IMG/VR virus record: IMGVR_UViG_3300032607_001281
Coordinates: 1-25,874 of that record
Direction: 5' to 3' (one strand)
Origin: a virus
Length of the DNA stretch: 25,874 nucleotides
Below, piece after piece: positions 3,021-22,106 of the stretch (within the stretch, counting starts at the first letter, position 1; every line of letters begins with the position of its first letter). Under the pieces are notes generated by a model. The model was given only the letters and a program-made list of their open reading frames with translations. It had not been told where the DNA came from and did no database searches. Both the position numbers and the translations under genes were made by a program.

Positions 3021-3692
3021 ATGAACATTAATGAAATTAAAATTGAAAATCCAGCTAATGGTGTATACATTTATAAAAATACTCTTAACAAGGAGTTAGA
3101 TCTAGTCAGCAGGCTAGAAAAAGTAATGGAAGACAATAACGGCACAGGTGATTGGCTTAAATGGTCTGAAGCACAAGTAGGAGATTATCAAACAATGAAA
3201 GATTATCGTGACTGTGTAGACTTTAAAGTAAGAAAAATTGATTTTGAGTGGAGAAAAAATTACAATCTAACTAGTCTAAAGTCTGTCTATGATGACATTG
3301 ATGTTAGACTTCAAGAATGCATAAAGCACTACTGCTCAATGTATAATATTACCATGAAATATCAAGAAGCCGTTAACTTTGTTAGATATGGTAAAGGTCA
3401 GCACTTTGGGGTACATGCTGATCATGGATTTAGCTATGTATGTACTGTTTCAAGTGTTATGTATTTAAATGATAACTATTCTGGGGGAGGATTATATTTT
3501 CCATATTTAAATTATACATATACTCCAGAAGAAGGAGACATTGTTTTATTCCCTTCAACTTTTATATATTCTCATGCTGCATTACCAGTTGAAGAAGGAA
3601 TTAAATATGCTGCAGTAACAATGTTTGACTATAATGACAGAGTTCATGGCAATAATGAAATCTTAAAAAATAGACCTACACAAGATGTCTAA
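3021..3692 (+). CDS. 2OG-Fe(II) oxygenase, divergent P4H-like (223 aa), copy 2
   Basis: A good ribosome site (AAAAGGAGA) precedes the ATG at 3021. The catalytic core is H132 and D134 (VHADH), SVMYLNDNYSGGGLYFP at 145-161, EGDIVLFPS at 171-179, H185 (YSH), and K195 (GIKYA) at the place where the two neighbouring paralogues have Arg. Lys at this position is normal in animal collagen prolyl-4-hydroxylases, so the enzyme may still be active. The N-terminal half is unlike the other two oxygenases, which suggests a different substrate or a separate origin. The last eight bases overlap a 48-residue gene. Confidence 0.88.
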   Translation: MNINEIKIENPANGVYIYKNTLNKELDLVSRLEKVMEDNNGTGDWLKWSEAQVGDYQTMKDYRDCVDFKVRKIDFEWRKNYNLTSLKSVYDDIDVRLQECIKHYCSMYNITMKYQEAVNFVRYGKGQHFGVHADHGFSYVCTVSSVMYLNDNYSGGGLYFPYLNYTYTPEEGDIVLFPSTFIYSHAALPVEEGIKYAAVTMFDYNDRVHGNNEILKNRPTQDV

Positions 3693-6902: not shown

Positions 6903-9900
6903 ATGTCAAGAAGACAAATAGAACACGCATACTACGTATTTAATCCAGGAGCCAATACGATTACTATTCCAAGAATAGTAAGACAAGACCGATTAATGCT
7001 CATTACAAATACCACTCAAGGTAAAGTAATCTATAACTTCTCCGACACCAACCTAGGCGCAGTTTCTTTTGCAGTTGACAATGAAGTTGGATACGAGCCA
7101 AAAACAATAATTACCCTTAAGTATAATTGTTCAACAATGGCTGCTACGGATTCACTTGCAATTATTGTTGATGAGCCAGCAGAAACAGTAACATTTACAG
7201 AACCACTTATGGATGCAGTAAATAAACTAAGAGTTTCTCCACCACAATCTTTAATGGATACAGACTTTGAATATGGTATTCAAAGCTCTAAGTGGGAAGC
7301 CCTGGTTTTAACATCAAATTATCCATCATTCTTTTCTAGAGCAACAGGCGGAAACTCATTTGACGTAGTCAGCGTAACTGGAGACGGTGTATCACCAAGA
7401 TCTACAGTAACCGTAGTAGTTTCTAGCCCAGCAACAGAACTACTTGCAGGAGATGTTGTTTCACTTCAAGACACAAAGAACCCTTTAGCTGAAGGAACTT
7501 TTCCAGTTGAAATAGTAAGCGCAGATGGTTTTACATTTACATATCTAGCAAACGGAATTGTCAGTGGATCAATTGCTGACGGAAGCCTTACATCAGTTAC
7601 TGGTGGAGGAATTTATGATAACGCACACATTCCAGGCGGAAGCGATGCTATCGGACTTCAAGGATGGTCTGCCCAATCAGACGGAGCAGCACAATCTACA
7701 ATCACAATTACAACAAGCACGGCTCACGGACTTCTTCCAGGAACTCCAATCCTAATCGGAAGCCAAAACCCAAGTTGCTCAATCAAGGGATCTTGGCGTA
7801 TATTTAACGTTTCAGCTCCAAATCAAATGAAATTTAGGATGGATTCTCAAGTTGCTAACCCAGTTATTACAACTGGAGTAGGACTTTATGCAAAGCCAAA
7901 TGGATATGTACAGCACAGACCACACGATGGCGGAGTTATTCTTTCAACAACAGACAACGTCTGTGGAGTAAGAGTTATTCGTCAAACACGTCGTGCCTTT
8001 AGATATCAGTCAGGAAAGTCAATTCAGTTCTCAACTGGTGTAAAGTTTACCCCAACCTTTGACGTAGATCAGATATCAGTAGCTGGAGTTTTGATCGGAA
8101 ATCAGGCTGTAACTGTCCGTACAATTCAAGACCACGGAATGCAACCAGGCGCAAGGATTAAGGTAGACGGAGTTCTTACAGCAGGATCATATAACCCATG
8201 GAACGGCAAGTTTACAGTTACACAGGTTTTAGGAACAAATGAGTTCCAGTACGTGATGCCACTTACACAAAACTTAACTGCTACAGATCAATTCCCAGGA
8301 GGAGTTGATGTTTCGGTTACTGTTTACAAATGGGAGGGTGCTGCAACAAGAACTGGTATGTTCAATGACCAAAACGGATTCTTCCTTGAATTTGATGGCA
8401 CATACTTATATGCAGTTAGAAGATTTACCAAGAAAGATCTATTCGGTAAAGTTGCTGCAACTAAGTTCTCAAACACCATTACGGGAATAAATACAAGATT
8501 TAGAAAACAATTACTAGTTGGAGATCAGATTGTAATTAAGGGAGCAAATTATACAATTTCTGAAATTGCATCAGATACTAATCTAAAGGTTACACCAGCA
8601 TATAAGGGAGACTCTGTAGCAAACTCTTCTTATGTACTAACTCAAGAAATTCGAGTTCCTCAAACTGAATGGAATGTAGACAAGCTTGACGGAAAAGGTC
8701 CTTCAGGGTATACGCTAGACCCTTCATTAATGCAGATGGCCTATATCGACTACACCTGGTATGGTGCAGGATTTATTAGATTTGGTTTTAGAGGCACAGA
8801 AGGAAATATTGTTTATTGCCACAAGATGCCTAACAATAACAGAAATACAGAAGCTTACATGCGATCTGGAAACCTTCCAGCAAGATATGAAGCAATCAAC
8901 TCACCGTTCTTTAGTACAAAACTAAAGGCGGGATCTTCAGGAATAGTTGGATCAGCACTAGCCCCAACAATGATTGTTATGTATGTTGATAGCGTTAAGT
9001 TTTGGCCATCATCAGGATTCTTGGTAATAAAAGACGCAAGCAATTTTGAGATTTGTTCTTACACAATTACTAATACAAATTATAATGAAATTGCACAAGG
9101 TTATCCTGTTAATATAAACAGAAGACAACCAATGGTTTCTTATCTACAAGGTACAGCAATAACTCTTTCTGGGTCATCAAATAATGCCACATACCTTCCA
9201 GATAATACTATTACAAACGGAACAGGAATTGCACAAGTTTCTGTTCAAACAATTACAAATACATGTGCTCCAGTAATTAGCCACTGGGGTTCATCAGTTA
9301 TCATGGACGGTAAGTTTGATGATGATAAGAACTTTATCTTTACCGCTGGTATGCAGAGATTTGTAAACGTTTCAGGTTCTGGCGAAGTTATTGCAAAAAT
9401 TGCTTCAAAGTCTGCCACAGCAGGAGTTGCAACAGTAACAACTGCCGCACCTCATAACTTGCAGGTAGGATATCCAGTTGTAGTTTCTGATGTAAAAACT
9501 GTAGCGTCAATAACAAGTATTCAAAGAACTTCTGCATCTAATATAAGAATTACTACTCAAGGTTCTCACAATTTTGTTCTTGGACAAAATGTAACAATAT
9601 CAAACTCAGTTCTTTCTAGAAATCTTCAAAATGGTCAAATTTCTACTGGCGCAGTAACTACTGTTTTAAATGGAGCTAGGGACATAACTGCAGTACCAGC
9701 ATCAAACCAATTCGATGTAACACTTGTTGGAGTTTACGGATACACTGCTCAAGCACAAACATCTTCAATTGCTACTGAACTTACAACATTTAATGGCACA
9801 TACACAGCAAGCGCAGTAACAAGCAATACAATTCAATACACTATCCCATTTGGAACAACAATTCCAGTTAGCATTGTTACTCCACAAGGATCTGTTTCTC

Positions 9901-10463
9901 AAAGCTTTGGTACAAAGGCAGTTGCAAGACCACTTCTATCAATTAGAATTGCGCCATCTGCTGATAATGGAATCGGACGAAATTACGGAAAAAGAGAAAC
10001 ATTAAACACTATGCAGTTGGCACTTAGCTCGCTAGGTATTCTTGCTCAAGGAGCTTTCCTAATTCAGGGTATTTACAACCCTTCATCTTTCCCTACTGGA
10101 GTATCTCTACCAACAGATTGGGAAAGTATTAGAGTACCTGGTGGATCATTATCTCAGGTTATTTATCATGACAATACTGGAATAACTGGATCTACTATAA
10201 CTAACCCTCTAACAACAATTAGAGGTGGAGACCAGGCGTTTGCCTTCTACACCGACGGTACTGGTGGTACAAACTATTCAGCAACTACCTTTGATTTATC
10301 AAAGGTTAAAGACCTCGGAACATCAATTCTTTCTGGAGATGGAAACTACAAAGCCCCAGGATTCCCAAATGGTCCAGATATTTTAACAATCGTTGCAACA
10401 AACCTAGGATTAACATCTGGAGACATTTCAGCTCGTTTATCTTGGACAGAAGCTCAGGCATAA
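6903..10463 (+). CDS. Large virion structural / tail-fibre-associated protein (1186 aa)
   Basis: The largest gene here. Ribosome site AGGAGA precedes the ATG. Residues 1-90 form a small beta domain. Residues 110-131 (RVSPPQSLMDTDFEYGIQ...), 358-379 (the RQTRRAFRYQSG region) and 611-662 (DYTWYGAGFIRF ... NTEAYMRSGNLPARYE) match blocks I associate with large fibre/baseplate-type structural proteins of environmental tailed phages, especially marine ones. Between them are repeated beta modules around an AHG/DHG/PHN/SHN core followed by LxxG and a V/I-rich strand, at about residues 274, 410, 849 and 887. These look like stacked Ig-like or gene-conversion-prone repeats. No enzymatic motif is seen. 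It may be the platform on which the following adhesins sit; that is inference. Confidence 0.78.
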   Translation: MSRRQIEHAYYVFNPGANTITIPRIVRQDRLMLITNTTQGKVIYNFSDTNLGAVSFAVDNEVGYEPKTIITLKYNCSTMAATDSLAIIVDEPAETVTFTEPLMDAVNKLRVSPPQSLMDTDFEYGIQSSKWEALVLTSNYPSFFSRATGGNSFDVVSVTGDGVSPRSTVTVVVSSPATELLAGDVVSLQDTKNPLAEGTFPVEIVSADGFTFTYLANGIVSGSIADGSLTSVTGGGIYDNAHIPGGSDAIGLQGWSAQSDGAAQSTITITTSTAHGLLPGTPILIGSQNPSCSIKGSWRIFNVSAPNQMKFRMDSQVANPVITTGVGLYAKPNGYVQHRPHDGGVILSTTDNVCGVRVIRQTRRAFRYQSGKSIQFSTGVKFTPTFDVDQISVAGVLIGNQAVTVRTIQDHGMQPGARIKVDGVLTAGSYNPWNGKFTVTQVLGTNEFQYVMPLTQNLTATDQFPGGVDVSVTVYKWEGAATRTGMFNDQNGFFLEFDGTYLYAVRRFTKKDLFGKVAATKFSNTITGINTRFRKQLLVGDQIVIKGANYTISEIASDTNLKVTPAYKGDSVANSSYVLTQEIRVPQTEWNVDKLDGKGPSGYTLDPSLMQMAYIDYTWYGAGFIRFGFRGTEGNIVYCHKMPNNNRNTEAYMRSGNLPARYEAINSPFFSTKLKAGSSGIVGSALAPTMIVMYVDSVKFWPSSGFLVIKDASNFEICSYTITNTNYNEIAQGYPVNINRRQPMVSYLQGTAITLSGSSNNATYLPDNTITNGTGIAQVSVQTITNTCAPVISHWGSSVIMDGKFDDDKNFIFTAGMQRFVNVSGSGEVIAKIASKSATAGVATVTTAAPHNLQVGYPVVVSDVKTVASITSIQRTSASNIRITTQGSHNFVLGQNVTISNSVLSRNLQNGQISTGAVTTVLNGARDITAVPASNQFDVTLVGVYGYTAQAQTSSIATELTTFNGTYTASAVTSNTIQYTIPFGTTIPVSIVTPQGSVSQSFGTKAVARPLLSIRIAPSADNGIGRNYGKRETLNTMQLALSSLGILAQGAFLIQGIYNPSSFPTGVSLPTDWESIRVPGGSLSQVIYHDNTGITGSTITNPLTTIRGGDQAFAFYTDGTGGTNYSATTFDLSKVKDLGTSILSGDGNYKAPGFPNGPDILTIVATNLGLTSGDISARLSWTEAQA

Positions 10464-10475
10464 AGGGAGTATAAA

Positions 10476-13145
10476 ATGGCAGCACCAGATCTTCCAATTA
10501 TTGGCACCGCTACAAAAACAGGATCCACAACAGCAACTGTTGCATTTGCGGCACCACTAGTTGATGGCGGGTCCACAATTACTGGCTACACTGCTTTATC
10601 AAACCCTGGTAGTATATCTGCTTCATCAACAACATCCCCAATTACAGTTACAGGATTACAACCTGGAACAAATTATACTTTTACAGTAACAGCTACTAAC
10701 GGCGATGGAACCTCTGGCCCTTCTTCTCCAAGCAATAGCATAACAACAGATTCTACTGCACCAGATGCCCCAACAATTGGTATTGCTACAAAAACAGGAA
10801 CATCGACAGCCACTATTGCGTTTTCAGCACCAGTATCTAATGGTGGATCACCAGTTGCTATCTACACGGCCACATCTTTACCTAGTGGTGTTACTGTTAC
10901 GGGAACATCTTCACCTATTACCCTTACTGGATTAACTTCCGCAACAGCGTACACATTTACCGTAACTGCAACAAACTCTATAGGTACTTCTAGTCCATCA
11001 CAAGCAAGTAATAGCGTAACTACAGATTATATAAATCCTAATTCCCCTGGTGCCCCAACAATTAACACAGCCACAAAAACGGGCTCAACAACAGCAACTG
11101 TTGCATACACTGCGCCAGCTTCAGATGGCGGATACGCAATTACCAGTTACACTGCTTCATCAACTCCTGGCGGTATTACTGGAACTCTTTCCCAAGCAGG
11201 AAGCGGAACAATTTCTATCACAGGACTGACACCTGGAACAGACTACACCTTTATAGTCTTTGCAACTAACTCACAAGGCGATGGTACTAACTCATCTGCA
11301 AGTACTACAATAAATACAGATGCCGCAGCACCTTCTGCACCAACAATTGGCACAGCCACAAAAACGGGCTCAACAACAGCAACTGTTGCATTTACTCCAC
11401 CAACTCAAAATAACGGAGCAGCAGTAACTGGTTACACAGTTACATCAACCCCTGGTGGCAATACGGCTACTGGATCATCGTCTCCAATTAATATTACAGG
11501 ATTAACTCCTTCAACTGCATATACATTTACAGTAACGGCAACAAACTCGGCGGGAACCTCTGTTGCTTCTGCACCAAGTAATCAAATTACATCAGACGCC
11601 ACAGTTCCTGACGCACCAACGGTTGGTACAGCCGTAAAACTAACGTCAACAACAGCACGGATTGCATTTACACCACCAGCTTCAACTGGGGGAGCATCTA
11701 TTTCTAGCTACACAGTTACATCAACTCCTGGAAACATTGTTGCTTCAGGATCAGCATCTCCTATTACGGTTCTAGGATTGACACCTGCAACTGCCTACAC
11801 TTTCAAAGTAGTAGCAACTAACTTTGTTGGAAATGGTGCACAATCTGCTGCAAGTAATAGCATAACTACAGACGCTACAGACGTATATGTACCTGGAGCT
11901 CCAACAATAGGCACTGGTACAAAAACTGGCTCAACAACAGCAACTGTTGCATTTACCGCACCAGTATCAAATGGCGGAGCAGCAATAATTGGTTATATTG
12001 GTACAGCAACACAAACTGGAGCAACACCTCCTGCTGGCATTATTGCTTCATCTACAACATCACCAATTACTTTTACAGGATTAATCCCTGCAACTCATTA
12101 CACATTTAAAGTAGCAGCAGTTAACTCAGTTGGAACTGGCCCTCAGTCTGCTGAAAGTAATATTATAAATACAGACACAGCACCACCTGGAGCACCAACA
12201 GTCGGAGTCGCCGCAAAGACAGGCGCTACCTCTGCAACACTTACATTTACTCCCCCAACCGTAACTAATGGCCAGACAGTAACTGGATACACGGTATCAT
12301 CGACCCCACTTGGTGGCTCAGGTGCGGGAGCTACTTCACCAATTCTTATTACAGGTCTTACTCCAGCCACAGCCTATACCTTTAAAATTAGAGCCATCAC
12401 TAGTTCTTCTGAAGGCGAGCAGTCAATTTCAAGTAATATTATTACAACCGATTTTGGATCCTCAGCTAATTATGCTACATTGTCAAATCAAATTGAGACA
12501 ATTAAAACAAAAATTAATGCTTTAACATCTACATCTTTAAACGCAGAGCAAATATTGTATGTTTCAAAATCTTTAATGATTTTATCTGAAGCACTTGGCG
12601 TAGAAGATGTTGTAGAAGCTACTGCAAATGCAATTGATAGAATTGATGACGCAGGCGCAGCAGCAATTACACTTGTTAGCGGAACGGCAAATGGAGTAGC
12701 AGTATCAAGCTTATCAAGTAAGTACACTACGCTACAAGCAACATATGATAACATTAACCCTAGAGTTACTTCTCTAGAAGGCGTAATTACAAACCAAGAA
12801 TCAAACATTGCAACAGCATCAGCATTAGCAGCAAGCGCTGGATATAATCCATGGTCAGTTGTAACTGCAAGCAAGCTTTTAGTTAATAGAGACAGAGTTT
12901 TTATTAATACTCCTACTGGTCAAGGCGGAGTAGGCGGACTAACTTTAACTCTTCCAGCAGGACCTGGAATAGGTGCTGTTGTAGAAATAGTAGATATCTC
13001 TGGAAATGCTTCAACAAACTTCTTTACTATAGCTAGAAACGGTGAATTAATTCAAGGCGCAGCAGAAGACCTTATCTTCAACGTAAACAATAAAGCTATG
13101 AAATTAATATATTCAAATACTGCAAAGGGATGGAGAATCGCATAA
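10476..13145 (+). CDS. Tail fibre with seven fibronectin type III repeats (889 aa)
   Basis: AAAGGGAG precedes the ATG at 10476. Residues 1-660 are seven FnIII-like domains of about 90 residues, each opening APxxPTIGTATKTGSTTAT, carrying GYT, ITxTGLTPATAYTF and ending SNxITTD. FnIII arrays are common spacer or carbohydrate-binding modules in phage tail proteins. Residues about 666-725 form a helical module (IETIKTKINALTS...LGVEDVVEAT) that recurs as the main part of the separate gene at 14495. The C-terminal hundred residues (DRVFINTP, LTLTLPAGPG, IARNG, AEDL, GWRIA) are the fold often seen at the tip of phage fibres. So the order is array, coil, tip. It overlaps the next gene by one base (TAATG). 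Confidence 0.88.
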   Translation: MAAPDLPIIGTATKTGSTTATVAFAAPLVDGGSTITGYTALSNPGSISASSTTSPITVTGLQPGTNYTFTVTATNGDGTSGPSSPSNSITTDSTAPDAPTIGIATKTGTSTATIAFSAPVSNGGSPVAIYTATSLPSGVTVTGTSSPITLTGLTSATAYTFTVTATNSIGTSSPSQASNSVTTDYINPNSPGAPTINTATKTGSTTATVAYTAPASDGGYAITSYTASSTPGGITGTLSQAGSGTISITGLTPGTDYTFIVFATNSQGDGTNSSASTTINTDAAAPSAPTIGTATKTGSTTATVAFTPPTQNNGAAVTGYTVTSTPGGNTATGSSSPINITGLTPSTAYTFTVTATNSAGTSVASAPSNQITSDATVPDAPTVGTAVKLTSTTARIAFTPPASTGGASISSYTVTSTPGNIVASGSASPITVLGLTPATAYTFKVVATNFVGNGAQSAASNSITTDATDVYVPGAPTIGTGTKTGSTTATVAFTAPVSNGGAAIIGYIGTATQTGATPPAGIIASSTTSPITFTGLIPATHYTFKVAAVNSVGTGPQSAESNIINTDTAPPGAPTVGVAAKTGATSATLTFTPPTVTNGQTVTGYTVSSTPLGGSGAGATSPILITGLTPATAYTFKIRAITSSSEGEQSISSNIITTDFGSSANYATLSNQIETIKTKINALTSTSLNAEQILYVSKSLMILSEALGVEDVVEATANAIDRIDDAGAAAITLVSGTANGVAVSSLSSKYTTLQATYDNINPRVTSLEGVITNQESNIATASALAASAGYNPWSVVTASKLLVNRDRVFINTPTGQGGVGGLTLTLPAGPGIGAVVEIVDISGNASTNFFTIARNGELIQGAAEDLIFNVNNKAMKLIYSNTAKGWRIA
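11066..11106 (+). repeat. 41-bp repeat in FnIII domain 3
   Basis: Identical over 41 bases to 11351-11391 in FnIII domain 4; shorter near-identical stretches occur in domains 1 and 6 (near 10516 and 11930). The identity includes synonymous sites, which points to recent duplication or recombination among domains. Confidence 0.85.
11351..11391 (+). repeat. 41-bp repeat in FnIII domain 4
   Basis: Second copy of the segment at 11066-11106, in the same reading frame. Confidence 0.85.
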
Positions 13146-14494: not shown

Positions 14495-14818
14495 ATGACA
14501 ACACTTACCGCACAAATTGAGCTAGCAAAGACAAAGATTAACGCTTTGTCTGCGTCTACACTTACAACACAAGACATCGTATTCTTGGCTAAATCCCTCG
14601 AATCCCTTGGATCACTCCTGGGAGTTAACGACATTGTGGCAGTAACAAATACAAAAATTTCAGAGATCACAAATGCATCTAGCGGACAGGTTACAACAAT
14701 AACTAACGCAGGATCTTCTCAGGTAAATGCTGTGGTTACTTCTGGAAATCAACAAATCGCATTAGTAAATGCAGCAGTAGATAACTATAATCTATTCGTA
14801 AACATGGGAGTAATATAA
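14495..14818 (+). CDS. Small helical fibre-module protein (107 aa)
   Basis: Residues 3-56 (LTAQIELAKTKINALSASTL, then IVFLAKSLESLGSLLGVNDI) are a paralogue of the helical segment in the FnIII fibre at about residues 666-725. Residues 57-100 are repetitive (ITNASSGQVTTITNAGSSQV, then VTSGNQQIALVNAAVDNYN), consistent with a trimeric coiled coil. It looks like a stand-alone shaft or connector segment. It has its own promoter-like element and AGAGGAG ribosome site, and is followed one base later by a small beta-rich protein. Function not established. Confidence 0.72.
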   Translation: MTTLTAQIELAKTKINALSASTLTTQDIVFLAKSLESLGSLLGVNDIVAVTNTKISEITNASSGQVTTITNAGSSQVNAVVTSGNQQIALVNAAVDNYNLFVNMGVI

Positions 14819-14819
14819 A

Positions 14820-15137
14820 ATGGCACAAATTAGTTTACCAGCAAGACTTTTCGGAGGAAGCGTTTCAGTAACTGAGGCTCAGGTTTACACCGTCCCAGCA
14901 GGGGAGACAGATGTTATTACATCTATTACCCTATGTAACACTACCGACGTAGCACAACAGGCAAGCGCAAAATTCGCAGGCATTTTCTTTTTTAAGAATA
15001 TTGACCTAGCACCTCGTCAAATCACAGTTATAGATGTTAAGCAGGTTCTAAATGCAGGAGATGCAATTATTCTCAGTGCAGGTAACGCAACCTCTGTAAC
15101 AGCATTTATCTCTGGCGTAAAAATAACAGTAATTTAA
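14820..15137 (+). CDS. Small beta-rich tail-associated protein, copy 1 (105 aa)
   Basis: GGGAG in the end of the previous gene serves as ribosome site. The product is almost all beta-strand pattern: VYTVPAGETDVITSITLCNT, a middle IDLAPRQITVIDVKQVL, and the end NAGDAIILSAGNATSVTAFI followed by SGVKITV. The end has the same layout as the gene at 20002 (VNPGDRIFAQAS...LTISGVEVV), so the two are probably distant paralogues. In shape these resemble small beta-sandwich virion accessory or adhesin proteins. No enzyme motif. Confidence 0.72.
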   Translation: MAQISLPARLFGGSVSVTEAQVYTVPAGETDVITSITLCNTTDVAQQASAKFAGIFFFKNIDLAPRQITVIDVKQVLNAGDAIILSAGNATSVTAFISGVKITVI

Positions 15138-15163: not shown

Positions 15164-16672
15164 ATGGCAGTTGCAAATACAGTTACGCAAATTGTTCTAC
15201 CTGGTCTAGACAAGGTAGTGCAGGATCAAACAACAGCAGCCCTAGCGGTAAACGACACCGTTGCTGCAATTCTTACGAATCTTGCAAGCCAGGGAAGCGT
15301 TACAGCTTTAAACACAGCAATTGCAGATGCAAATGCCGTGGTTACAGAACTTCCTTCAGCTAACCCTTTGCCAACATTTGCAACATATTCATGCCGAGAT
15401 AATAGACCATTTTGGAATATTTATAACAGCAATATGCGACCTCTTGATGCAGGAAGTCAGCACACAGACTCAGAGCTATGGGCACCCTGGACTGGAAACA
15501 ACTATACAAACGAACGATTTAACTCAAGCGGTTGGACATCTTATTGGAGTCAAGCAACACCATATCAACAGGCAGACGGTCACTGGATGATGAGACTAAA
15601 TGCTGGTAATAGAACTTACACTGCAATTCACTCTGATGTATCTCCTTCTTACATGCCCTACTATGGAGTAGTTATTGGTAAAACAGGAATACGACAAAAC
15701 TTTTCTTTATTTTCACAAAATGAAACATTAAGAATTTGTGAGCGTGGGATCCATCAGGGATTTTATGAAAATCTAAACCTAAATAACACTACCTACTCTA
15801 CTTGGGTAAGCGGTACTTCTTACGGTTCAGCTGGATACAACGATAGAACAAGAACACTTGTAGTGGTAGCCGCAAAAGACGGATCTAATAACTACAGAAT
15901 GCACATATGGAAGAATACAGGAACCGATAGATCTTTAAATAGCGACAATTACTATCCAGGAACCCTTGCTGCTTTTATGAGAGAAGCAAAGACAGGCCTT
16001 CTTGACGCAGGGCAGGGTGCGGGAGTTCCTAGCTATGCATTTTATGACTTTCAATGGCAGGCTAACTCTTCTCAAAACTATGATGAGTCAAGATATCGTA
16101 TGCGTGTTATACCTGGAGATAATGGCATCATTGGAATGGCTAGAATGGTTCCATCAAACGTAACTAACTATGCAGTGTATAATCCATCAACTCAGCAATT
16201 AACAACATCTTTTAACACAATCGGATTAACAACCTCATACGGAATAGAACAGGGTAACAGATACGGAATGAGACACAACATTACTTGGGACAACAACTGG
16301 GTAGCAGCGTACAACGCATACTATTATTACGGCTCAGGAATGAATGTTTATTTTATTGATACAAGGGATCCTAGAAATTATTTTATTGGTCAGGCAGGAA
16401 ACAGCGAGAATGGATGCCAGCTAGTTCCATATCAACAAGATAAGTTTTTGTTTAATAACTCTAGACACAATGTTGATAACGATTATGGTCTAGCGCTTTA
16501 TGTTATTGAACCTGAAGCTGCTTTGTTAGGAAGAACTACAAGCGGAACTATAGCTAATGGCGGCACCTTGGGTTTGCAGAATAACCGACAAGGTGGTAAA
16601 TTTGACACAGATTACACAAGCACCAATTTCCCAGGGCTCCAATCAATGGCGCACTGGACAAGAAGAGTATAA
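15164..16672 (+). CDS. Putative receptor-binding protein 2 (502 aa), paralogue of 17428-18972
   Basis: TTAGGAGAA precedes the ATG. Residues 1-66 are an Ala/Val-rich helical attachment segment (IVLPGLDKVVQD...). From NPLPTF at 67-72 to the end it aligns with the 17428 gene: shared blocks include RTRTLVVV/ARTSTLAVL, YRMHIWKNT/YRLHVWKNT, SSQNYDESR/SSQNYEESR near residue 298, VPSNVTNYA/VPSNVTRYA, TTSYGIEQG/TTSYGVEQG, TWDNNWVAAY/TWDNNWFAAY and a closing DTDYTSTNFP/DTRYQSTNYP. The repeated short beta motifs spaced through the protein suggest a propeller-like or beta-helical adhesin; this is inference. The central 130 residues differ most between the two, as expected if that part contacts the receptor. 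Confidence 0.72.
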   Translation: MAVANTVTQIVLPGLDKVVQDQTTAALAVNDTVAAILTNLASQGSVTALNTAIADANAVVTELPSANPLPTFATYSCRDNRPFWNIYNSNMRPLDAGSQHTDSELWAPWTGNNYTNERFNSSGWTSYWSQATPYQQADGHWMMRLNAGNRTYTAIHSDVSPSYMPYYGVVIGKTGIRQNFSLFSQNETLRICERGIHQGFYENLNLNNTTYSTWVSGTSYGSAGYNDRTRTLVVVAAKDGSNNYRMHIWKNTGTDRSLNSDNYYPGTLAAFMREAKTGLLDAGQGAGVPSYAFYDFQWQANSSQNYDESRYRMRVIPGDNGIIGMARMVPSNVTNYAVYNPSTQQLTTSFNTIGLTTSYGIEQGNRYGMRHNITWDNNWVAAYNAYYYYGSGMNVYFIDTRDPRNYFIGQAGNSENGCQLVPYQQDKFLFNNSRHNVDNDYGLALYVIEPEAALLGRTTSGTIANGGTLGLQNNRQGGKFDTDYTSTNFPGLQSMAHWTRRV

Positions 16673-16685
16673 GGGGAGAAAAAAA

Positions 16686-16970
16686 ATGAAAGTTATTTTT
16701 AATCACGGAGTAGTAGAGTTTCATGAAAACGGAGACTATGAGACAGACATTGTCACATCTTTGCCTCATAGATTAGATGTTGTTGACGGAGTTGTTGTTG
16801 ACAAATATCCAGGAAAAACAGATAATGAAGTAAAAATTGCAGACCACGAAAAGGCCGCTGCTGAATTAGCAAAGCGTAAAGATGAGTGGAACAAGTTGTC
16901 AGACGAAGAGAAAAAGAACGTAGAGCGCCCAGAAGATTTGCCTGAGCTAGATCTACCAGAAGAGGAATAA
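16686..16970 (+). CDS. Small acidic accessory protein following receptor-binding protein 2 (94 aa)
   Basis: The ATG at 16686 is chosen because AAGGGGAG lies 8-15 bases upstream; a longer in-frame reading from 16557 would overlap the preceding gene for over 100 bases. The N-terminal 45 residues look beta-rich (MKVIFNHGVVEFHENGDYET), the C-terminal half is charged and helical (DHEKAAAELAKRKDEWNKLS), ending in an acidic tail. Position directly after an adhesin gene and a charged helical C-terminus resemble fibre-assembly chaperones, but no family signature is evident. Confidence 0.72.
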   Translation: MKVIFNHGVVEFHENGDYETDIVTSLPHRLDVVDGVVVDKYPGKTDNEVKIADHEKAAAELAKRKDEWNKLSDEEKKNVERPEDLPELDLPEEE

Positions 16971-16971
16971 C

Positions 16972-17409
16972 ATGCCAATTACACAGACCCCCCAATCAGT
17001 AGTTCCAGCACTTTGGACTTACACATACCTTCAAGCTCCAATCAATGGACAAGGCAATCCATACTTTAATATCCCAGCTCAATTCTTAGACCTTGGAACC
17101 AAATCAAGCGGAGTCCTTACATTAAACCTAGCAGCTTCAAATGTTTTTAAAGTAATTGCTGGTGGAAATTTTACAGTAGCTTTTTCAAATATTGCGGCTA
17201 CAGCAAGCGTAGCACAATTTTGGCAAATGGAGATAAAGACTGGCGGAAGTTATACTATCAATTGGCCAGCAGGAATTGTATGGGATGGTGGCGGTGCTTC
17301 AAACATTCAGCCAGTGCTATCATTAGATACAACAGTTTTAAATTTTTACACCAGAAATAATGGAACAACAATCTTCGGATCATACGCATTCTCAGATTTG
17401 AAAATCTAA
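16972..17409 (+). CDS. Fibre-tip-like beta protein (145 aa)
   Basis: Starts one base after the previous stop, with AGAGGAA upstream. The pattern LDLGTKSSGVLTLNLAASNV, then NFTVAFSN, WQMEIKTGGSYTINWPAGIV, VLNFYTRNNGTTIFGSYAF is the beta-sandwich tip seen at the C-terminus of many fibres and in small stand-alone tail proteins of aquatic phages (WPA.V.W.GG ... F.T.NGTT..G). It may be an exchangeable tip or a virion decoration. Confidence 0.75.
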   Translation: MPITQTPQSVVPALWTYTYLQAPINGQGNPYFNIPAQFLDLGTKSSGVLTLNLAASNVFKVIAGGNFTVAFSNIAATASVAQFWQMEIKTGGSYTINWPAGIVWDGGGASNIQPVLSLDTTVLNFYTRNNGTTIFGSYAFSDLKI

Positions 17410-17427
17410 CATAAATAGGAGAAAAAA

Positions 17428-18972
17428 GTGGCAATATCAACAATATCATCAAACAGCACTTCAATAGCATTACCAGATTTAGACGTATCAATCTTTAACA
17501 ACCTAAACGCTGGATTAAATACAAGCCCTCAGATGCTTTCTATACTTTTGTCATCTTCATCATCATTAAGCCTGAACGATTCTATTGCACAAGTAGCTTT
17601 AATTGATGATAACATTAAGAATAATGCCCTTACAAAAAACCCTCTCCCTACTTTTGGAGTTTACACCAATAGAGCTAACGAACCAGCATTTGTTACCTAC
17701 AGCAGCAACATGCAGCCTATGTACGGCGGATATTTAAGAGATGATGGCGAAGCTCAAGATTGGCAGGATAGAAGCTGGAGATATACAAATACTTCACAAG
17801 ATGCAAGAGGAACTGGACACTCTTCAGTAAAAGGAACTTGCTATCAACAAGATGAGGGCAACTGGTCGGTTCAACTTCCAGGACATGCGCCTGCTTCAGG
17901 ATCCGACGCACAGTTTATGCACGGAACTTGGCCGTGGTGGATTGTAAACCATTGGCCATTTTTTGGAACAGTAATTCAAAAATCAGGAGTTCGTCCAAGA
18001 AATTCAATTTATTACAGAAACTCTCAGATAGGAATGTATCCTAGAGGCGGCACTGCTCCACTAGAACTAGTCGGCATGAGCGCAACGTACGCTGACTGGT
18101 CTAATTATAATCAAGGATACACAGGTATTTCTTACAACGCTAGAACCAGCACTTTAGCGGTTCTAGAAAATAGAGATAACTCAAATAACTATAGACTTCA
18201 CGTATGGAAAAATACTGCTATAGATTTAGATCCAACTAATTATACAGCTGGAACTATGCACAGATTTTTGCTAGCGGCAAAAACTGCTGGAACACCAACA
18301 GCATTAACTCAAGCAGCCTACTACTACTACAATGATTTTCAGTGGCAGCAAGACAGCTCACAAAACTATGAAGAGTCAAGAAGAAAAGCATACATTGTTA
18401 TGGGAGATAATAACTTAGTTGGAATAGCACGATTTGTTCCTTCAAACGTAACTCGCTATGCAACATTTGCTCCAAACTTTGCAACAACTTCTGGAACTTT
18501 AACAACATTAAACGGCCAGTCGCACACAACTTCATACGGAGTTGAACAAGGACTTTACTATGGAATGCGCTATATGCAGACTTGGGATAATAACTGGTTT
18601 GCAGCGTATGCGCCATATTACGCATATCAATCAGGATGGTGCGGTCTTTTCTTTAATACACAAGATCCTTCAAAGTATTACACTTCTAGATGGGCAAGCA
18701 CATCTTGGGGCGCACAGATTGTTCCCTTTAAGAAAGATAAATTTATTTGGCATGCAGGAGAATCTAACGCAGATGGAACTGTTGGTATGAGACTTTATGT
18801 TGTTGATCCAGGTGGACTAGCAAAATATGGAGTTGACTCTAATGGAACAGCACAAGCAAATGGTTCAACTATTGATCTATTTAAGTCTACCTTTACATAT
18901 TCTTTTGATACAAGATATCAGTCTACAAATTATCCAACAATTGTTCCAATGGCTGAATGGTCACACGGCTAA
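17428..18972 (+). CDS. Putative receptor-binding protein 3 (514 aa), paralogue of 15164-16672
   Basis: GTG start at 17428, supported by ATAGGAGAA just upstream. A Ser/Leu-rich N-terminal segment (residues 1-70) corresponds to the attachment region of its paralogue; the adhesin part starts at NPLPTF (71-76). Shared blocks with the 15164 gene run over the whole remaining length, while the region after NPLPTF (about residues 80-190, Trp-rich: TWPWWIVNHWPFFGTVIQ) is largely unrelated. Both genes are intact, so this is duplication with divergence rather than decay. It is followed directly by a small accessory gene, as with the other two receptor-binding candidates. Confidence 0.72.
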   Translation: MAISTISSNSTSIALPDLDVSIFNNLNAGLNTSPQMLSILLSSSSSLSLNDSIAQVALIDDNIKNNALTKNPLPTFGVYTNRANEPAFVTYSSNMQPMYGGYLRDDGEAQDWQDRSWRYTNTSQDARGTGHSSVKGTCYQQDEGNWSVQLPGHAPASGSDAQFMHGTWPWWIVNHWPFFGTVIQKSGVRPRNSIYYRNSQIGMYPRGGTAPLELVGMSATYADWSNYNQGYTGISYNARTSTLAVLENRDNSNNYRLHVWKNTAIDLDPTNYTAGTMHRFLLAAKTAGTPTALTQAAYYYYNDFQWQQDSSQNYEESRRKAYIVMGDNNLVGIARFVPSNVTRYATFAPNFATTSGTLTTLNGQSHTTSYGVEQGLYYGMRYMQTWDNNWFAAYAPYYAYQSGWCGLFFNTQDPSKYYTSRWASTSWGAQIVPFKKDKFIWHAGESNADGTVGMRLYVVDPGGLAKYGVDSNGTAQANGSTIDLFKSTFTYSFDTRYQSTNYPTIVPMAEWSHG

Positions 18973-18973
18973 A

Positions 18974-19270
18974 ATGTACTATGCGATTCTTGATTCAGAA
19001 ACCGTAAAGAGATCTGGAACTCTTAATACATTATTTCCAAATGCTTCTTTCCCTCTTTCAGGTCCTAATGAAGACTTCAAAGAAGAAAATGATTTGGTTG
19101 AAGTTTTAGAGTATCTGGAGCATGACTCCGCAAAGCAGAAAATGATATTCTGTGACCCATATTTCCTAGATGGATCTGTATACAGAGTTGAGCTTGTAGA
19201 TTTTACTGCACAAGAAATAAAGTCAAACAAGGCTGCTATTAAAGAATTTGAATCCTTACAGGGGGCGTAA
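18974..19270 (+). CDS. Small accessory protein following receptor-binding protein 3 (98 aa)
   Basis: The start at 18974 (one base after the preceding stop) is chosen because longer in-frame readings overlap the adhesin gene in a wrong frame. No clear ribosome site is present, so it is likely translated by coupling. The product (MYYAILDSETVKRSGTLNTL...) opens like the chaperone at 14080 (MYYIQFDENG) and ends in a helical segment (FTAQEIKSNKAAIKEFESLQ). The opening, size and position suggest a fibre accessory or assembly protein; no family is certain. Confidence 0.72.
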   Translation: MYYAILDSETVKRSGTLNTLFPNASFPLSGPNEDFKEENDLVEVLEYLEHDSAKQKMIFCDPYFLDGSVYRVELVDFTAQEIKSNKAAIKEFESLQGA

Positions 19271-19992
19271 TGTTAGAGTCACAAAGATCGCTATTTAAAA
19301 GATCAAGATACAGCCAATTTGGCTTACAGCTATGGCTAGACGGCACAGCCGTAGACAACTTTGAAATAACTCCCGTTACAAACAAATGCTACTTGGCAAA
19401 AGAGAGATCTCAATACTTAAGAAACTTTGTGCAGGCAACTACAACAAATCAACCTACTTATGTATTAGCAGCAATTAACTCACTGCCAGCGCTAAGATTT
19501 GACGGCGTAAATCAATTTATGACATTCTCAGATCCAACATTATCGTGGCTTGCAAATTCATCTTTTACGCTTTTCTACGTTGCAACTAAAACAGCAAAGA
19601 CTACTACGTCATTTGTTATAGGCGGACAAGGAACTGCAACAAGATCAAACCTAGCATCGGGATACACCATTCCAACATCATCTAGAGCGGTATTTGGAAA
19701 TGATGATATCAATGCTATTGTTCCAGCAGTAACCCCTGGTCAGCCAGAACTTTATGCTATAAGATATGATAACTTAAACAATAGAAGAGAAGTTAGAAGA
19801 AATGGTATTACTGTTGCCCTTGGAGCTTCAGACGGAGCCCCTTCTAATATGACAGGTCAAGCAATTGGGCGTTACCTATCTACATACGGCCAGTTCGACC
19901 TAGGAGAAATTCTTATTTATAACAGAGCCGTAAGTGACTATGAAATCGGTCAAGTTGAAAGAGACCTTATTTCTAAGTGGACAATCGTCTAA
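19270..19992 (+). CDS. Concanavalin A/LamG-like domain tail protein (240 aa)
   Basis: Starts by TAATG overlap with the preceding gene, after AGGGGGCG. Typical lectin-fold blocks are LQLWLDGTAVDNFE near residues 19-32, LPALRFDGVNQFMTF near 72-86, SFTLFYVAT near 98-106, and the closing GEILIYNRAVSDYEIGQVER at about 212-231 followed by DLISKW. These are the hallmarks of LamG-type (concanavalin-like) domains in phage and bacterial surface proteins, which usually bind carbohydrate. The domain fills almost the whole protein, so it may be an accessory adhesin attached to the fibre. Confidence 0.82.
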   Translation: MLESQRSLFKRSRYSQFGLQLWLDGTAVDNFEITPVTNKCYLAKERSQYLRNFVQATTTNQPTYVLAAINSLPALRFDGVNQFMTFSDPTLSWLANSSFTLFYVATKTAKTTTSFVIGGQGTATRSNLASGYTIPTSSRAVFGNDDINAIVPAVTPGQPELYAIRYDNLNNRREVRRNGITVALGASDGAPSNMTGQAIGRYLSTYGQFDLGEILIYNRAVSDYEIGQVERDLISKWTIV

Positions 19993-20001
19993 GGAGACAA
20001 A

Positions 20002-20334
20002 ATGGCATATGTCCCAGAAAGATTTGTTGGCCCTTTAATACTAAGCCAGCTAGCAACAACCCCTCTTAAAACTTTTGCTAATAAAGCAATCCTAAAAAAC
20101 ATTATTGTTTCAAATATTTATAACGGAACATTGATCTACTCTATCTACGTAGCACCAGCTGGTGAAGATGCCCAGAACTATAACAAGGTATTTCCAGATC
20201 TTACAGCACCAGATAAATCTATTACTTCTCACGATGTTACAATAGTCGTAAATCCAGGAGATAGAATTTTTGCTCAGGCTAGTATCCCAGGCGGTATCCT
20301 TCTCACCATATCTGGCGTAGAAGTTGTTTCTTAA
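20002..20334 (+). CDS. Small beta-rich tail-associated protein, copy 2 (110 aa)
   Basis: AAGGAGAC gives a strong ribosome site. A beta-rich protein with ILKNIIVSNIYNGTLIYSIY in the middle and VTIVVNPGDRIFAQASIPGG at the end, finishing LTISGVEVVS. The terminal layout (NxGD, short strands, ISGV) parallels the gene at 14820. Probably a small virion component; function unknown. Confidence 0.72.
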   Translation: MAYVPERFVGPLILSQLATTPLKTFANKAILKNIIVSNIYNGTLIYSIYVAPAGEDAQNYNKVFPDLTAPDKSITSHDVTIVVNPGDRIFAQASIPGGILLTISGVEVVS

Positions 20335-20366: not shown

Positions 20367-22106
20367 ATGAGCTATCAACTAAAGGTAATTAAAGACTATC
20401 CAATTGCACTTCTGCCATTAGATGAGTCTTCTGGAACCACCGCTATAGATATATCAGGATGTGGAAATTCAGGAACATATGTTGGCGGACTTCAATCAAA
20501 TATTCTTCCATTAATTCCAGGTGGCATTTCAGGAAATTTAATCAGCTCTATCAAATCAATTATTCTTTCTACAACAAAAGATTTTTATGGCTCAACAGTA
20601 AGTGGAGGATTTGCTAATAAATATACATCACAAAACAACTTCTCATTAGAGGCTTGGGTATATCCTAAAATTAGCAGTACGGCAAGAACAATTTTAATAG
20701 CAGATAATACGGCGGGAATTGGAATATATTATGAGGCGGGATCATTAGTATTTAAGCTTCAAGATCAAGAGCTATATTACACATTAAATAACACCAATAA
20801 GGTAATGCATATTGTGGCCACATATTCCCAATCTAGCATGTCTTTATTTGTAGATGGATATAACGTTGCCACTAAATCAATCACAGGTTTTAAGTTTACA
20901 AATGAATCCCTAGCCCTATCAATTGGCCCAGCTACCTCAACAGACTACTTTGTAGTAGATGCTCCAGCCATATATCGTGAGGCACTTACATCAGAAACAA
21001 TCAGAGAGCATTTTATTGCTGGCACATTTCATGTAAATCCCATTCAGTTTATTAGAACTGACGGAGGCAAGCTATTCCAGCTAAATGATGAATTTATTAA
21101 GCCCGTGTACCGATACTCTTTGACTGAATTAAAAAACTATGTAAATGATGATGTCTATTATGAGAAGACAAATCAAGCCCTTACTTTTTACAAGACAGAT
21201 ACTGCCATAGCAAAATCTGTTGAAATTAATGAAATTATAAACATCCCTACAGACATGGGTGCTACAACCTCCAAGATCTATTGGAAGGCGGACAAAAATA
21301 TAACAGTTCAATCTAGCATAGATGGAACCAATTACTCTATGTGTGAAAATGGTAAGTCTCTGCCTAATTATAATAAGTCAGCACCAATAACAACAAACAA
21401 TGTATTCCTTAGAATCACAATGTCTACAGCAGATGCTTCTAAATACCTTCCAAAATTATCTTCAGTTAAACTAGACTTTTATTCCTCAATCGATGCCTAT
21501 TCAGAAAATTCTGGATATTATGCCACATCTACATCCGACTATTCCCTCGGATCATTTAGCTATCCACCGCTTTTAAGACATAAGAATAATGGCCTTCAGA
21601 CAAAGGCAGGTGCAGGATTTAACATACCCGTAAAAGACTCTGTAAGCACCATAGAGATGTTTTTTACACCTTCTGACCTTACGGCTAGTGCCCTATTTGA
21701 TGTGCCCTCAGAGGGCCCATACACGGCTTCCAAATACTCTTGGACAAATAGCGGGACCATAACAAAGACTAATATTTCAAAGATATATGTAAATGGGGTA
21801 GATCGGACAAGTCAGACAAATATATCAAATGTATTCCTGGCAGATAATCTACATCATGTTGTATTAGTTCTAACACAACCTTGTTCAGGTATATTAAAAT
21901 TTAATTACACGGGCGCAGGAGGCCCATCCAGCCTATATAAAAATATTGCTATATACGATTATCAAATGTCTGAGGCTTTGGCTACGGAACATTATGGGTC
22001 TTATATTGCCCGACCAAATGCTTCAGTGTCGGATACGTCCATGACGTTGACAGATTCTGCCCCAAAGGCATACAACAGCGACTGGTTAGTCATACAAACT
22101 ATTTAA
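20367..22106 (+). CDS. LamG/concanavalin-like adhesin (579 aa)
   Basis: Residues about 10-225 form a Laminin_G_3-type domain: YPIALLPLDESSGTTAIDIS, then NFSLEAWVYP near 92-101, MHIVATYSQSSMSLFVDGYN near 146-165, and a closing YREALTSETIREHF. A middle beta-rich region (about 230-390) follows. A second, more diverged LamG-like unit seems to occupy the C-terminal part (STIEMFFTPSDL, LHHVVLVLTQPCSG, IAIYDYQMSEALATEHYGSY). Such double lectin modules suggest carbohydrate binding at the virion surface. It is the last adhesin before the head genes. It lacks a ribosome site and may be translated from a leaderless mRNA. Confidence 0.82.
   Translation: MSYQLKVIKDYPIALLPLDESSGTTAIDISGCGNSGTYVGGLQSNILPLIPGGISGNLISSIKSIILSTTKDFYGSTVSGGFANKYTSQNNFSLEAWVYPKISSTARTILIADNTAGIGIYYEAGSLVFKLQDQELYYTLNNTNKVMHIVATYSQSSMSLFVDGYNVATKSITGFKFTNESLALSIGPATSTDYFVVDAPAIYREALTSETIREHFIAGTFHVNPIQFIRTDGGKLFQLNDEFIKPVYRYSLTELKNYVNDDVYYEKTNQALTFYKTDTAIAKSVEINEIINIPTDMGATTSKIYWKADKNITVQSSIDGTNYSMCENGKSLPNYNKSAPITTNNVFLRITMSTADASKYLPKLSSVKLDFYSSIDAYSENSGYYATSTSDYSLGSFSYPPLLRHKNNGLQTKAGAGFNIPVKDSVSTIEMFFTPSDLTASALFDVPSEGPYTASKYSWTNSGTITKTNISKIYVNGVDRTSQTNISNVFLADNLHHVVLVLTQPCSGILKFNYTGAGGPSSLYKNIAIYDYQMSEALATEHYGSYIARPNASVSDTSMTLTDSAPKAYNSDWLVIQTI

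Follow-up and report, generated by a model that had tools for sequence, protein, structure and literature searches.

Two genes of an uncultured phage, paralogues A and B, encode real, intact and ancient paralogues that we take, with a probability of roughly 65%, to be host-binding tail-tip adhesins of one family, specialised copies of an old duplication that have both been kept. They lie in the 25,874-base virus record IMGVR_UViG_3300032607_001281 of IMG/VR, the whole of which is referred to here as the window. A (15164..16672, + strand) has an ATG start and encodes 502 residues, and B (17428..18972, + strand) has a GTG start and encodes 514 residues. Both products are predicted to consist of N-terminal helices followed by a beta-propeller and are putative host-binding tail proteins.

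Paralogy and predicted fold of A and B

As the original prediction had it, both reading frames are uninterrupted up to their stop codons, and a plausible ribosome-binding site, kept across relatives, precedes each start (TTTAGGAGAAATAAAAAATG and AATAGGAGAAAAAAGTG). The proposed divergence of two paralogues was also borne out, with A and B sharing 39% identity (E 1.6e-89) and giving a local alignment score of 809, where the highest of 200 shuffles reached 85, and the common sequence blocks that had been named, NPLPTF among them, are present in both. Identity is 47 to 67% in most 20-residue blocks across residues 241 to 400, 18 to 36% at residues 81 to 160 and 11 to 29% at residues 1 to 60. The N-terminal segments had been described as strongly different, which the last of these values supports; they are not unrelated, however, since a T-x-I-x-LP-x-LD motif and three predicted helices are common to both. 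This motif reappears as TxQIxxPGxE in diverged relatives. The paralogues contain no long near-identical block, so that a recent gene conversion is unsupported.

The fold had not been recognised from the sequence, and AlphaFold2 models built from 41 (A) and 96 (B) aligned sequences predict a beta-propeller for both proteins (pLDDT 76 and pTM 0.79 for A, pLDDT 86 and pTM 0.82 for B). In both models, three N-terminal helices are followed by repeated units of three to four strands and by a C-terminal strand that probably closes the ring, in line with the four-stranded antiparallel blades of a propeller. The helices, a putative stem or attachment segment, are predicted at low confidence and span residues 15-61 of A (15206..15346, + strand; pLDDT about 45-58) and residues 18-67 of B (17479..17628, + strand; pLDDT about 55-74). 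Searching for this segment as a module in other tail proteins gave a single weak match (E 0.008). The predicted propeller domain occupies residues 67-502 of A (15362..16669, + strand) and residues 73-514 of B (17644..18969, + strand).

Foldseek returned propeller matches with E as low as 2.5e-5, and nearly all of the top 50 structural re-alignments (VIA-align) for each model were to propellers, with Z from 7 to 9.5. The best match of A reached Z 9.5 over 274 residues (rmsd 5.8) and that of B Z 8.7 over 276 residues (rmsd 6.5), and the matches listed include a lactonizing enzyme, WD40 proteins, PLL/PHL lectins, sialidases, prolyl oligopeptidases and carotenoid oxygenases. The propeller class is well supported by these models, with no known subfamily singled out. 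Solved structures match loosely (TM 0.2-0.3, rmsd 5-7), and profile self-comparison for internal blade repeats found one marginal pair only. With no close solved structure and almost no sequence repeat, the blade number and the ligand site are uncertain; on our reading of the strand order in the models, the divergent propeller probably has six blades.

Propellers also occur as enzymes and scaffolds, and A and B could cleave glycans, as depolymerases of the sialidase or glycosidase kind, instead of only binding them. The structural matches include neuraminidases and GH43-type propellers, the near-invariant positions include several Arg, Asp, Glu and Tyr residues, and phage endosialidases are propellers on a stem (PMC4901313). 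The endosialidase endoNF (PDB 3GVJ), whose propeller sits on a phage adhesin, matches A at Z 7.9 over 250 residues with an rmsd of 7.0 but is catalytic and longer. An enzymatic role nevertheless appears improbable, given that the sialidase Asp-box (S-x-D-x-G-x-x-W type) had no match in A or B, that no Pfam family was found for either at E up to 1, and that the structural matches are spread across all propeller families without a preference for enzymes. Among the best matches of B are the sugar-binding Photorhabdus PLL/PHL lectins (Z 8.4, 270 residues, rmsd 6.4), which share the propeller fold but are not phage proteins, with sequence identities of 4-6% in the top matches.

The architecture predicted for A and B, a helical stem followed by a beta-propeller, recalls that of the Staphylococcus phage phi11 receptor-binding protein Gp45 (PDB 5EFV), which acts in host adsorption and has a five-bladed propeller with a cavity that might accommodate GlcNAc (PMC4901313). 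Gp45 probably differs from A and B in its blade number, and it has C-terminal tower domains, which are absent from both of our models; in each, about 10 residues at most separate the final propeller strand from the C-terminus, leaving no room for a tower. The Foldseek match of 5EFV to B was weak (E 1.1e-3, probability 0.21).

An unannotated family in a conserved tail cassette

With A or B as query, we found no match in Pfam, PHROGs or annotated phages, and a PDB sequence search with B as the only query also gave none. IMG/VR yielded 37 and then 67 overlapping loci, with 100 distinct matching sequences. A first scan of bacterial genomes returned no relative; the larger family alignment as query found a more distant copy in two bacterial assemblies, a Rhodoferax MAG (L109) and Tepidimonas thermarum (L110), with 34% identity over residues 67-511. 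Gp52 of the Acidithiobacillus phage AcaML1, annotated as "hypothetical protein", is a remote member of the family on the basis of significant profile similarity (E 3.4e-15; hhalign probability 96.7%) and of its gene neighbourhood, although the sequence match is limited to about residues 224-446 of the family, a part of the propeller. A limited literature search found no paper describing this propeller family, whose members are unannotated propellers within an already known functional class, that of propeller receptor-binding proteins such as that of phi11.

Among the window's relatives, the propeller gene belongs to a four-gene cassette that encodes, in order, a 107-110-aa stalk-like protein (phrog_16274), a 105-aa beta protein (phrog_1276), the propeller and a 90-105-aa acidic protein, the gene for the last coming straight after the propeller or after a second propeller. 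In the window, the first two are a 107-aa stalk-like protein (14495..14818, + strand) and a 105-aa beta protein (14820..15137, + strand), whose positional counterpart in AcaML1, gp51, is annotated "tail fiber-like". Directly 3' of A is the gene for a 94-aa acidic protein with a PGKTDxEV motif (16686..16970, + strand), for which we would guess an accessory or assembly role, and directly 3' of B is that for a 98-aa acidic protein (18974..19270, + strand). The longest frame of both acidic ORFs begins inside the propeller gene, and the ATG just past the propeller stop is the likelier start; the two are possibly dedicated assembly partners. In the window's clade, a gene for a 145-aa protein that resembles the C-terminal parts of tail fibre proteins (phrog_7760, phrog_5596) stands between A and B (16972..17409, + strand). 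The stalk-like protein also occurs as a domain of an 889-aa tail protein (10476-13145; E 5e-11), so that the tail cluster contains this attachment module more than once. A 110-aa beta protein (20002-20334) matches phrog_1276 as the 105-aa protein does; the two, which have different adhesin-like genes as neighbours, are perhaps paralogues that have diverged.

The same four genes are found in the two bacterial assemblies (the Burkholderiales elements), flanked by a DUF4815 protein and by tail sheath and tube genes, and in AcaML1, where gp50-gp53 follow the order seen in the window. The cassette is thus conserved across very different phages. The two bacterial copies differ from A and B in lacking the N-terminal helices, in being single and in having sheath and tube genes alongside, and the Burkholderiales-type stalk protein that precedes the propeller is longer (186 aa); AcaML1 likewise has one propeller gene and carries sheath and tube genes. 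The stalk and beta proteins of one version are linked to those of the other by common PHROG matches, by position and by one weak direct match, between AcaML1 gp50 and the window's stalk protein (E 2.4e-4). These features point to an exchangeable tail-adhesin module.

A location at the tail tip is suggested by the tail proteins encoded upstream of A and B in the window and by the DUF4815, sheath and tube genes that adjoin the cassette in the Burkholderiales elements and AcaML1. These same neighbours argue against the alternative that A and B decorate the capsid as fibres and help the head to adhere to cells or surfaces. Such a head location would fit the LamG-like proteins and then the portal and head protease genes that come 3' of the A/B cluster, as well as the weak matches of genes near A and B to "head and packaging" virion families; we regard it as improbable. 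Two of the genes that follow B encode further adhesin-like proteins (19270-19992 and 20367-22106), the second of them a 579-aa protein with a LamG-type (Laminin_G_3) domain whose homologues, annotated "hypothetical protein", lie directly upstream of the portal gene in Streptomyces phages.

The nearest annotated relatives of the window's portal and protease are those of Streptomyces phages, with Rhodococcus phages more distant; identity to annotated phages reaches 59% for the portal and 44.5% for the protease, and two of these annotated relatives, inspected closely, are Stanwilliamsviridae. WhiB, which serves as an actinophage marker elsewhere (PMC6802176), is encoded in two 108-kb relatives of the window phage, and the host of the window phage itself is therefore probably an actinobacterium. 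A search of 11 longer relatives of the window turned up no sheath gene, in keeping with a non-contractile tail, and a contractile tail in the window's own relatives was rejected on these records. The structural cluster is mosaic, since a 1186-aa virion protein (6903-10463) is most like Synechococcus phage proteins and the portal and protease are Streptomyces-phage-like. The window also carries likely sulfotransferase and 2OG-Fe(II) oxygenase genes (1222-1977 and 3021-3692).

History and divergence of the pair

Wherever the record of a relative in the window's clade spans the two loci, A and B are both present. In a quick tree, in which deep branches are not firmly resolved, the A-type and B-type sequences of this clade and its relatives (L057-L067) form two groups that repeat one order of phages, and A-A and B-B distances across 22 genomes are correlated with a Mantel r of 0.98, a value reached in 0 of 5000 permutations. 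The mirrored groups indicate one duplication before this diversity, after which both copies were kept. Since any two genes inherited vertically should give mirrored trees, the pattern speaks for joint retention and not for interaction. In a second phage clade (L024, L029, L035 and others), two adjacent copies group with each other and apart from A and B with 100% support, suggesting either an independent duplication or homogenisation long ago. Three copies are present in some members (L038, L099, L106), and one record has three in tandem.

The retention of both copies since an ancient duplication suggests that each does a different job. That job could be a share in one structure, with A and B as two subunits of a heteromeric tail-tip complex that are both required in each infection, for example one anchoring and the other binding. 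Strict co-retention in all clade records that span both genes, the similar overall constraint on the two, the directly adjacent propeller genes of the second clade and the strong difference between the N-terminal stems, as expected for different docking sites, would all agree with such a complex. A lone propeller gene suffices in the Burkholderiales elements and AcaML1, however, and one record has three, so we consider a heteromer possible but unlikely. The idea at the core of the original prediction, two specialised receptor binders, is plausible; the branched tails and two receptors that it also proposed would be conjecture.

The original prediction also pointed to about 100 residues after NPLPTF as a variable, Trp-rich region. 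In the models, this stretch is mostly an insert that follows the third strand of blade 1 and precedes blade 2, at residues 99-168 of A (15458..15667, + strand) and, as its counterpart, residues 103-180 of B (17734..17967, + strand), and it is the main paralogue-specific segment. It is indeed rich in tryptophan, with 6 of the 12 Trp of A in residues 73-172 and 7 of the 17 Trp of B in residues 77-184. Its variability held between the paralogues but not among orthologues, where identity in the segment is 77-85% for A and mostly 86-90% for B, with 74% at its end. The overall dN/dS values of 0.18 and 0.19 for the two paralogues show purifying selection, and no 40-codon window exceeds 0.35, which contradicts the diversifying selection that had been proposed for the region. 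With its orthologues conserved (dN/dS about 0.2), the insert is not hypervariable. A diversity-generating-type reverse transcriptase was not found in the 11 longer relatives, whose records may be incomplete, and the insert was accordingly set aside as a target of a diversity-generating retroelement. The stretches that evolve faster among orthologues lie mostly outside the insert, at residues 41-60, 201-220 and 461-480 of A and at residues 41-60, 161-220, 401-420 and 461-480 of B.

Paralogue-diagnostic sites are enriched in residues 99-168 of A, with 22 diagnostic to 14 shared sites compared to 68 to 116 in the remaining propeller (Fisher p 0.009, a modest value given that the insert is one of several regions open to choice). 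Taken with the orthologue conservation of the insert, this enrichment is the signature of old specialisation and not of ongoing diversification. Adsorption genes often vary fast and A and B do not, which counts against reading them as adhesins.

Proposed role of the pair

In the adhesin reading that we favour, a short N-terminal helical stem would dock on the tail through the 107-aa stalk-like and 105-aa beta proteins, and the beta-propeller would make contact with the host surface, a cell-wall glycan being the likeliest target. The glycan ligand is suggested by analogy, from the fold and the genomic context, and two specificities or roles are likewise what we infer for the pair, which may act as alternatives, one after the other or in a mixed complex. 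A single ancestral gene would have been duplicated ahead of the diversification of the window's phage clade, its copies would have specialised mainly in the Trp-rich blade 1/2 insert and the N-terminal stem, and both have been held under purifying selection.

A bolder and rather doubtful extension is that the cassette moves as a module between sheath-less phages of Actinobacteria and phages of Proteobacteria that have a sheath, and that A and B have become, in one lineage, an obligate two-lock entry pair, with A engaging a first, reversible receptor and B a second, or with both in a mixed complex.

For a family of about 100 sequences from uncultured phages that public libraries do not recognise, the analysis provides a predicted fold together with a likely role, and it points to a gene cassette that probably sets the host range of these phages. 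Ancient paired adhesins under purifying selection would contrast with the usual fast-varying tail fibres, and they raise the question of whether two adhesins are kept for two receptors or because both are needed for entry.
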